A DNA stretch of 64,000 nucleotides from Nocardioides plantarum (GTDB taxonomy: Bacteria > Actinomycetota > Actinomycetes > Propionibacteriales > Nocardioidaceae), in assembly GCF_006346395.1 (NCBI RefSeq), contig NZ_VDMS01000001.1, positions 1,860,001 to 1,924,000 on the forward strand, in the 5' to 3' direction. The notes below the pieces were generated by a model. The model had not been told where the DNA came from. It worked only from the letters and a program-made list of their open reading frames with translations, and ran no database searches. Positions 3,126 through 7,641 of the stretch are shown piece after piece. Numbering within the stretch: the first letter of the stretch is position 1; the number at the start of each line of letters is the position of its first letter. The position numbers and the translations under genes are program-made.

Positions 3126-3974
3126 TCACGCCCGCCGCAGCAGGTAGACGTCCATCACCCAGCCGGCGGCGTCGCGGGCCCGCTCGCGCGCCGCGTCGAT
3201 CGCGCCGAGCACGTCACCCACCCGCCCCGCCACGAGCTCCTCCGAGGCCGTGCCGAGGTTGGCGCCCCACCAGATCTGCCAGTCCTCGAGGCCGTCGAGC
3301 TCGATCAGCCGGTTGAGCATCACCACGACGTTGTCCTGGCCCGACTCGACGGCCTCGCGCAGCCGGCGCCCGGTGGTGACGTGGAGCGGCTCGCCGACCT
3401 CGTGCAGCACGATGCGGTGGCGAGCGGCCAGCAGCTGGAGGCTGGAGACACCCGGGATCACGTCGAGGTCGAGGTCGAGCCGCCCGCGCCTGGCCACCCG
3501 CTCGAGGATGCGGATCGTGGAGTCGTAGAACGCCGGGTCGCCCCACACCAGGAAGCCCGCGTCGCCCTCGTGCGCCAGCAGCGCCTCCTCGTACGCCGCG
3601 GACCGCGCGTCGTGCCAGGCCTCGACGGCGGCGGCGTACTCCTGTTGGGTGCCGGTGCGCTCCGGACGCCGCTCGCGCGCCGGGTCCTCGATCCGTACGA
3701 CGACCGGCTCGTGGTCCAGGTGGCGCTCGAGGAGCCGGCCGCGCGCCGCGACGAGCGGGTCGGGCATGCCGCCGCGCGGCGACTTGTCGGAGACCACGAA
3801 GAAGGCGACGCCGCGCATCGCGTGCAGCGCCTCGACGGTCACCTGGTCGGGGTCGCCGGGGCCGACCCCGATGACCCGGACCCGCTTGCGGATCTCGACA
3901 GGCTCGATCACCGAGCCCTCGGTGGTCGAGCCCTCGGTGGTCGAGCTTGTCGAGACCCAGGCACTCTCGGCCAT
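3126..3974 (-). CDS. cobF: Precorrin-6A synthase (deacetylating) CobF
   Basis: SAM-dependent C-1 methyltransferase that also releases the acetyl group from precorrin-5 in the aerobic pathway. The core of the 282-residue protein shows the tetrapyrrole methylase fold: RVRVIGVGPGDPDQVTVEAL near residue 32, FLVWGDPAFYDSTIRILE mid-protein and VIPGVSSLQLLAARH after it; the WHDARSAAYEEALL segment is CobF-specific. Residues about 6-28 (VSTSSTTEGSTTEG and on) are encoded by an inserted palindromic repeat and are absent from normal family members. The start at 3974 has a GGAGGA Shine-Dalgarno 10 nt upstream and is one base from the cobN stop, so translation must run through the repeat. Confidence 0.9.
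   Translation of the reverse strand: MAESAWVSTSSTTEGSTTEGSVIEPVEIRKRVRVIGVGPGDPDQVTVEALHAMRGVAFFVVSDKSPRGGMPDPLVAARGRLLERHLDHEPVVVRIEDPARERRPERTGTQQEYAAAVEAWHDARSAAYEEALLAHEGDAGFLVWGDPAFYDSTIRILERVARRGRLDLDLDVIPGVSSLQLLAARHRIVLHEVGEPLHVTTGRRLREAVESGQDNVVVMLNRLIELDGLEDWQIWWGANLGTASEELVAGRVGDVLGAIDAARERARDAAGWVMDVYLLRRA
3891..3958. repeat. Palindromic dispersed repeat inside cobF 5' end
   Basis: Two arms of the form (g)atctcgacaggctcgatca and ggtcgagcttgtcgagacc face each other with an extra half unit (cctcggtggtcgag) between them. The element is read in frame as part of cobF. It belongs to the same family as the copies at 5438, 7150 and 63026. Confidence 0.85.
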
Positions 3975-3975
3975 G

Positions 3976-6900: not shown

Positions 6901-7641
6901 GTCGTCGCCGCCGGCGCTCACGCCGGCCGGGGTGCTGCCCCCGGCGGCGAGCACCGTGACGATGAGCGCGTCGAGCCCGCCGAGCGCGGCGTAGAGCTCG
7001 TCGGGGGCCGAGCGCAGGGATCCGGCGTACACCGGGACGCCGACGGCGGTGCCGGTCGCGTCGATCGCGTCGGCGAGGTCGTGCACGAACGCGGTGTTGC
7101 CGCTGGCCTGGTGGGCCCGGTAGTAGAGGATCCCGACCTTCGGCAGGTCAGTGGTCGAGCCCCCCTCGGTGGTCGAGCCCCCCTCGGCGGTCGAGCCTGT
7201 CGAGACCCTCTCCGCCCAACCCCAGCTGGGGATCGGCGCCGGCGCCTCGAAGCCCTCGCCGGTCAGCAGCACGGTGTCGGAGAGGAACGCGTGCAGCTGG
7301 GCGAGGTTGTCCGGGCCACCCTCGGCCAGGTAGCGGTGGGCCTCGGCCGCGACGCCCATCGGCACCGACGACAGCTCCATCAGCTCGGCGCTCGGCTGCT
7401 GCTCGCCGCCCAGCACGACCATCGGCATGCCGGTCTGCTTGATCCGGGCGAAGCCGGTGCAGAGGTCCTGCGGCGAGCCGAGGATCCGGCCGAGCACCAG
7501 GTCGCAGCCCTCGATCGTGGCGGCCATCGACTGGTGGCCCGGTCGCGCGGGGTTGGCGAAGACGTAGTCGGCGCCCCGGGCGTTGGCGGCCCGGGCCGAC
7601 AGCAGGTCGGTGTCGGAGGTGGAGAGCAGGGCGATGCGCAT
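3976..7641 (-). CDS. cobN: Cobaltochelatase large subunit CobN
   Basis: Catalytic subunit of the aerobic ATP-dependent cobalt chelatase that inserts Co(II) into hydrogenobyrinic acid a,c-diamide with CobS and CobT/ChlD-type partners, which are not in this window. The 1221-residue product is full length for the family and contains the typical blocks [56 protein letters not shown] and the C-terminal [18 protein letters not shown]. Two in-frame palindromic repeats interrupt it, at about residues 145-164 (three half units) and about 727-734 (VSTGSTTD), both apparently in linkers. The start overlaps the stop of the upstream FhuF-like gene by one base (TGATG). Confidence 0.97.
   Translation of the reverse strand: [1221 protein letters not shown]
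5438..5461. repeat. Palindromic dispersed repeat half unit inside cobN (C-terminal half)
   Basis: A 24-bp half element (tcggtggtcgagcctgtcg followed by agacc) read in frame as KVSTGSTTD of CobN. Same sequence family as the elements in cobF and egtB. Confidence 0.85.
7150..7207. repeat. Iterated palindromic repeat inside cobN (N-terminal half)
   Basis: Three successive half units of the word (c)ggtggtcgagcc, spaced by 18-19 bp, ending in the full cctgtcgagacc arm. It is read in frame as a Gly/Ser/Thr-rich linker beginning VSTGST in CobN. The iteration suggests local duplication after the element arrived. Confidence 0.85.

Follow-up and report, generated by a model that had tools for sequence, protein, structure and literature searches.

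How does a short palindromic repeat come to lie in frame within conserved enzyme genes? The question is raised by a 64,000-nucleotide stretch of the Nocardioides plantarum genome (contig NZ_VDMS01000001.1, positions 1,860,001 to 1,924,000; here termed the window), in which one dispersed repeat is found inside the genes cobF, cobN and egtB. An earlier reading of the window from its letters, termed here the sequence-only reading, had drawn attention to the cobF and cobN copies. The segments in cobN, cobF and ileS are repeat-derived and are missing from a close relative. Very probably the repeat is a dispersed, REPIN-like element that inserts blind to reading frame, and selection keeps copies of triplet length in three tolerable frames.

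The repeat and its copies in the window

The repeat arm, GGTCGAGC[CT]TGTCGAGACC, has 72 exact copies in the 4.68-Mb genome; the reversed pattern, taken as a control, has none. The copies listed share GGTCTCGACARGCTCGACC, after which most have ACCGA or a variant of that sequence, and all listed arms start with GGTC and end with GACC. A number of copies have an inverted second arm downstream of the first, often of the form CGGTGATCGAGCYTGTCGAGATC. Single arms and half elements are frequent as well, and iterated half units of 15 or 18 nt often follow the arm. A wider pattern, with the common ends and a variable middle, has 67 matches in the same genome, some of them nested, and nearly all represent the same elements. 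Freedom from stop codons in six frames is not claimed as an adaptation, because at 72.8% GC nearly half of random 25-mers are stop-free (hand estimate).

With up to three mismatches to the arm allowed, the window has nine matches versus 0.20 expected from shuffles. Three of the nine are look-alikes, with two mismatches (39784) or three (23034 and 33949). The features are as follows; net gains are relative to G043, which of the 59 genomes searched is the closest relative and whose CobN is 92% identical.

2880..3081, no strand: 101-bp tandem duplication, two copies 98% identical, covering the cobQ start codon and the cobQ-cobF spacer
3073..3111, minus strand: related repeat with a longer middle in the cobQ-cobF spacer (GGTCTCGAGACGGCCGCGGGCGGCCTCCTCGACCACCGA), a wider-pattern match (C1:1863073-1863111)
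3126..3974, minus strand: cobF (precorrin-6A synthase), host open reading frame; TIGR02434, E 1.4e-72, residues 30-281
3891..3958, minus strand: cobF inverted-pair element, VSTSST-TEGSTTEGS-VIEPVEI, one long hairpin
3976..7641, minus strand: cobN (cobaltochelatase subunit), host open reading frame; TIGR02257, E 0
5443..5460, minus strand: cobN site B, single arm, VSTGST; net gain 18 nt
7151..7207, minus strand: cobN site A, arm with iterated 18-nt half units, 19-residue reading; net gain 12 codons (36 nt)
62037..63383, plus strand, end taken to include the stop codon: egtB (ergothioneine biosynthesis), host; TIGR03440, E 3e-168 for 62037-63380
63026..63074, plus strand: egtB inverted-pair element, VSTSST-GAS-VVEPVET, hairpin; solved EgtB (6o6l) has gaps of 3 and 4 residues there

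The cobF element has an exact arm at 3939-3957 and a second arm, a GATC variant read VIEPVEI, at 3891-3909, with iteration of the half unit at a 15-nt period at 3912-3946. In cobN, exact arms lie at 5443-5461 (site B) and 7189-7207 (site A), and half units are iterated at an 18-nt period at 7151-7197. All three exact arms of cobF and cobN are read VST[SG]ST. The sequence-only reading had placed the repeat correctly, once in cobF and twice in cobN, and was right about its iteration at site A and its in-frame reading. Its description of the segments as palindromic holds for the cobF insert, which folds as a hairpin (3889-3960, DNA fold z -6.2 versus shuffles), but not for the two cobN inserts; these are half elements, with folds no more stable than those of shuffles (z +1.2 and -1.0). 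The egtB insert also folds as a hairpin (63024-63076, z -5.1), and the full palindromes of cobF and egtB span about 68 and 49 nt, respectively. The reading had further seen no copies from 8 to 63 kb. No arm match with one mismatch or fewer lies between 7.3 and 63.0 kb, where the three look-alikes are located; the exact inverted pair in egtB (arms 63026-63044 and 63056-63074, reading VSTSSTGASVVEPVET) had escaped it.

The cobF insert precedes the conserved domain, which begins at residue 30. Its palindrome (3889-3960) starts about 16 nt past the start codon and would fold into a strong hairpin close to the start region of the mRNA; as predicted from the fold, this hairpin may affect cobF translation. 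The element also contains an in-frame GTG, at which translation could start as well.

A related longer repeat (GGTCTCGAGGCTCGTCGC...CTCGACC) occurs twice in the 101-bp duplication at 2880-3081, where the G043 alignment fits one copy of the unit. The fold of the stretch 3023-3118 does not stand out from shuffles (z -0.64). A cobalamin riboswitch (RF00174, 89.2 bits, 8748-8963, minus strand) lies upstream of the cob genes.

Reading frames of intragenic copies

In the N. plantarum genome (G000), 71 of the 72 copies were examined, that is, all but the copy on C6. The copies divide into 37 within called genes and 34 between genes. As the DNA is 87% coding, copies in genes are fewer than expected (binomial p 3e-13), and genes are therefore still avoided. 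One phase prevails among the 37 genic copies: 27 are read VST[SG]ST, 6 VVEPVET, 2 GLDxLD and 2 SRQAR. Six of the 27 sit in one doubtful open reading frame of 181 amino acids (locus L033, at C1:178 kb), where six exact arms at 30-nt spacing (7625-7793) may represent a variable number tandem repeat. When the count is limited to the 23 hosts that have a family match, there are 18 VST, 5 VVE, 2 GLD and 1 SRQ gene-by-phase cases.

Two further genomes of the genus, G044 (123 copies) and G039 (101 copies), as well as G283 (107 copies), from another genus of the family, were represented by the loci of the first 30 copies each. VST, VVE and GLD readings number 12, 3 and 1 of 16 genic copies in G044, and VST, VVE, GLD and SSL readings 12, 3, 1 and 1 of 17 in G039; 14 of 30 and 13 of 30 copies, respectively, are intergenic. 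Pooled per gene over seven data sets (G000, G044, G039 and four named-locus groups), there are 53 VST[SG]ST, 24 VVExVET and 12 GLDxLD cases. These three frames make up 89 of 94 cases, the remainder being 2 SRQ, 2 SSL and 1 GRA (chi-square p 1e-26). Each of the six frames is present at least once, and the orientations differ in frequency, 67 versus 27 per gene. The named-locus groups represent 80 of at least 117 stretches found, and their labels are the author's own: Nocardioides takes in Marmoricola and Nocardioidaceae, Arthrobacter takes in Specibacter and Micrococcaceae, Cryobacterium a Microbacteriaceae metagenome-assembled genome (MAG), and Promicromonospora the loci of a Promicromonosporaceae MAG. 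The pooled set leaves out G283, two Spirochaetaceae loci in which no genes were called, and the Propionibacteriales locus L241, which has one VST copy. A single gene may contain several frames; the serine/threonine kinase-like gene of locus L061 (5942-8386, minus strand) has four arms in three frames (VST, VVE twice and GLD) within its first 115 residues.

Triplet spacing and codon cost

Within genes, 88 of 88 spacings between tandem units are divisible by three, versus 54 of 159 between genes; in terms of distinct locus-spacing combinations the values are 44 of 44 and 38 of 101. Intergenic unit spacing is at chance level and has no triplet bias. The unbroken triplet spacing within genes would lend indirect support to the inserts being part of the translated proteins. 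Codon log-odds are near neutral for the common frames (VST -0.7, GLD +0.5, VVE +1.5) and strongly negative for the rare ones (SRQ -18, GRA -11, SSL -8). In the VVE frame the ratio of proline to leucine is 26:7, whereas outside genes the corresponding base gives 101:89 (p 0.007). Triplet spacing, codon scores and proline preference match the expectation under blind insertion with subsequent selection. The repeat would insert without regard to orientation or phase, and purifying selection would then remove copies that break the frame, together with those read in the rare-codon, Arg/Cys-rich frames. Units of 15 or 18 nt might later expand by slippage, and the flexible Ser/Thr/Gly/Glu linkers would be near-neutral passengers that the enzymes tolerate.

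The sequence-only reading had raised the idea of an element that enters genes in a phase-preserving way. Insertion would then be directed by a target choice coupled to codon position. The lead of one orientation and phase (53 of 94) is compatible with such a mechanism, as are the shortest net gains, which at 18 nt (IleS and CobN site B) are a multiple of three. Selection after insertion would nevertheless be sufficient, because six of six frames occur among the 94 cases, intergenic spacing is a multiple of three no more often than chance would give, and the rare frames coincide with the rare-codon frames. Phase-preserving entry is thus not supported, and directed insertion appears improbable.

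Could the gene caller have produced these patterns? In 240 simulated insertions all six frames were recovered, with recall from 28 of 33 (SRQ, the lowest) up to 47 of 47, which is too even for a caller artefact to be the source of the frame bias. After a simulated +1 shift, 17 of 39 arrays stayed in called genes, and broken genic arrays should therefore appear in a good part of cases. An artefact as the source of triplet spacing is thereby weakened, with a contributing role for the caller still possible. Base preferences around the arm are biased by the choice of loci and were not used.

Host proteins and the CobN linker

Of 27 host proteins, 23 have an NCBIfam match at E 1e-10 or below, some of them under the model's curated cut-off, and four have none at E 1e-10. 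By these matches the hosts include RibD, an aldehyde dehydrogenase, methylmalonyl-CoA mutase, ClpB, urocanate hydratase, a CoA-transferase subunit, a PepO-like peptidase, two biotin-dependent carboxylases, dihydrolipoamide acyltransferase, NirB, GcvP, IleS, EgtB, CobF and CobN, among others. In CobF, the mutase, the aldehyde dehydrogenase and HutU the insert is close to the N-terminus, and an alternative start is possible for these hosts. Judged by their translations, the inserts mostly read as a bland serine/threonine linker.

The linker at CobN site A, near 7.2 kb, is variable throughout the aligned orthologues and is a probable hotspot. Repeat tags of at least three types (CTCGACARGCTCGA, CTCGATACG and GAGGCTCGTCGC) are found there in 9 of 30 CobN genes, that of N. 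plantarum included. Tag density is 11.0 versus 0.60 per kb, a comparison whose nominal p-value is unreliable, as the tags were chosen post hoc. In Nocardioides daejeonensis (L175; CobN recognised by motifs) the same repeat is present at both CobN sites in the VVE frame, and separate insertions, or inversions, therefore took place at the same two places.

This raises the question of whether hosts have recruited the linkers, for flexibility, interaction or regulation, and have retained and iterated them on that account. Unit iteration in many genes would fit, as would the tags in the same CobN linker of nine genes and the recurrence at both sites in N. daejeonensis; against this, the host proteins are unrelated, and a merely permissive linker predicts a hotspot equally well. 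Recruitment is accordingly unlikely, and the suggestion in the sequence-only reading that the enzymes use the linkers finds no support in the analysis.

Insertion versus ancestral sequence

The CobN of G043 lacks both segments and is shorter by a net 12 codons at site A and a net 6 at site B. At site B, VSTGST is present in 0 of 29 other aligned orthologues, and 21 of 30 site-A linkers are without a repeat tag. CobF starts are readable in 3 of the 30 CobN loci, that of N. plantarum included; the other two (loci L136 and L137) do not have the insert, the CobF of G043 and of G057 starting without it. The net gain in cobF relative to G043 is about 69 nt (by the alignment ends, window 3889-3978 stands against 21 nt in G043). 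IleS has gained 18 nt (VSTGST) relative to G043, and none of 16 other aligned orthologues has VSTGST at that place, where four of them carry different short insertions; the search expression missed 13 of the 30 loci. Solved homologues have gaps opposite the insert, of 14 residues in CobN (7c6o, site A) and 7 in ClpB (6dju), in addition to those in EgtB. A predicted structure of IleS was poor overall (mean predicted local distance difference test score 55.4) and was not used.

That repeat-derived segments were absorbed in frame, as the sequence-only reading held, is therefore borne out by the G043 CobN, the gap in 7c6o and the two insert-free CobF, and the observation that it had named as refuting, the same residues in homologues from distant genera, was not made at the sites examined. 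The idea that the segments are old protein linkers with a secondary likeness to the repeat agrees with the variability of CobN site A, but the identical 19-mer occurs in intergenic DNA and in genes that are unrelated, and insert-free orthologues of CobN, CobF and IleS rule the idea out at these sites, so that it is exceedingly improbable overall.

Distribution among genomes and mobility

The repeat is dispersed over the genomes of certain soil actinobacteria. The exact arm is found in 37 of the 59 genomes of the genus, with 0-123 copies per genome, and copy number varies widely between relatives. Class-wide, it is present in 11 of 296 genomes and 6 of 114 genera. Among the named records listed are Nocardioides, Marmoricola, Cryobacterium, Arthrobacter, Promicromonospora, Specibacter and a Spirochaetaceae MAG.

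A RAYT-type transposase was sought as mobiliser and is rejected as a candidate: Y1_Tnp (PF01797) matched in 0 of 59 and 0 of 8 genomes searched, with a match in 5 of 14 known genomes as the control.

In G039, 21 exact arms lie within 20 kb around dnaA (C1:5117600-5137500, L165), 20 of the 21 intergenic, and inverted pairs are 41-42 bp apart near oriC. The neighbours of dnaA, as read from translations, are trx, parB, parA, rsmG, yidC, dnaN and recF. A 6-kb parA/parB contig of G011 (C66, L166) has nine copies of the arm, all nine intergenic. Among the listed copies of N. plantarum there is no arm cluster near dnaA.

Weighing of blind insertion and selection

Several points weigh against blind insertion followed by selection. 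Genic copies are rare in some lineages: 9 of 64 in the Cryobacterium group (55 of 64 being intergenic), 3 of 21 in the Arthrobacter group, and in G283 two copies, both VVE, and one partial, with 27 of 30 intergenic. VST is not dominant where genic copies are rare, and outside Nocardioides there is no VST excess (per gene, Arthrobacter group 0 of 3, Cryobacterium 0 of 5, Promicromonospora 2 of 7). The orientation excess is not fully explained by codon usage, as the VVE frame has the best codon score yet ranks second. Genes were called by the author's own codon-usage script, and 22 of 39 simulated frameshifts were called intergenic, so that the caller helps the 88 of 88 result. The spreading step is putative, as no known transposase was found. 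The empty sites stem from a sister species (CobN 92% and IleS 86% identical). At CobN sites A and B the flanks have diverged, and a target-site duplication is therefore unreadable. In GcvP (9uz6) and IleS (8wnd) the insert lies opposite a stretch of low conservation in the solved homologue, where the gap is one residue long or absent; taken alone, these two alignments are neutral on whether residues were gained.

A wider proposal, which must be considered tentative and rather doubtful, is that of a self-spreading, coding-compatible micro-element, down to 18 nt, whose arm is stop-free in six frames and codon-cheap in three, and which could therefore reside inside genes no less easily than in the spacers. 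It would seed Ser/Thr-Gly micro-linkers in several actinobacterial lineages, these growing by slippage, and some permissive linkers, such as CobN site A, would be recolonised by different repeat families.

Relation to other palindromic repeats

Palindromic repeats read in frame have been described before, as Rickettsia palindromic elements (RPE), intragenic repetitive extragenic palindromic (REP) sequences and PARCELs, in the portions of the literature consulted here (PMC2229807; PMC10969869; PMC2996958; PMC2759123; PMC3733652). RPE and their Wolbachia counterparts are dispersed palindromes found between genes and in frame in conserved genes, typically in non-structured segments, and RPE length is given as 105-146 or about 150 bp (PMC2229807; PMC2996958; PMC10969869). 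The Nocardioides repeat shares their in-frame presence inside conserved protein genes. It differs in size, with net gains of 18 nt (IleS and CobN site B), 36 nt (CobN site A) and about 69 nt (CobF) as against about 105-150 bp, and it is also set apart from RPE, as these are described, by its high-GC actinobacterial host and its iterated units.

With REPINs, or REP doublets, it has in common short arms, inverted hairpin pairs and dispersal, according to the parts seen of PMC3116915. It differs from REPIN/RAYT systems in that RAYT is unmatched in the genomes searched and about half of the N. plantarum copies are intragenic. The arms, with GGTC and GACC at their ends, have neither tag of the GTAG- and CGTC-tagged REP superfamilies. 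Di Nocera (2013) describes, in the parts covered, REPs wholly within open reading frames, including repair and tRNA synthetase genes, and treats RPE-4/6 together with CGTC repeats (PMC3733652); the Nocardioides repeat likewise occurs inside open reading frames. Its main text does not contain the words Nocardioides, actinobacteri, Streptomyces or Mycobacteri, and the parts covered contain no phase or triplet test. PARCELs are palindromic amphipathic coding repeats, tandem in proteins and mobile within and between genomes, as portrayed in the sections consulted of PMC2996958. The Nocardioides repeat resembles them as a palindromic coding repeat iterated in proteins; PARCELs form larger domains mostly in membrane and surface proteins, unlike the short linkers in enzymes seen here.

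Among the papers listed for this repeat or its genus none was relevant, and core sequences and peptides had no text match, within a coverage that excludes most subscription journals. The repeat is counted as a new form of a known phenomenon because it is RPE-like, yet has neither the size of RPE nor the RAYT and tag features of REPs. By analogy, it would work like an RPE but is much shorter, probably an unusually short case of a rare known phenomenon.

Significance

In the literature covered, accounts of coding palindromes come chiefly from Rickettsia, Wolbachia and a small number of others, and the repeat represents a high-copy system in another phylum. Its intergenic copies are built-in controls, by which selection on length, frame and residue becomes measurable. 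The intragenic copies provide natural insertion data on the places in core enzymes, such as IleS, ClpB and CobN, that accept extra residues.

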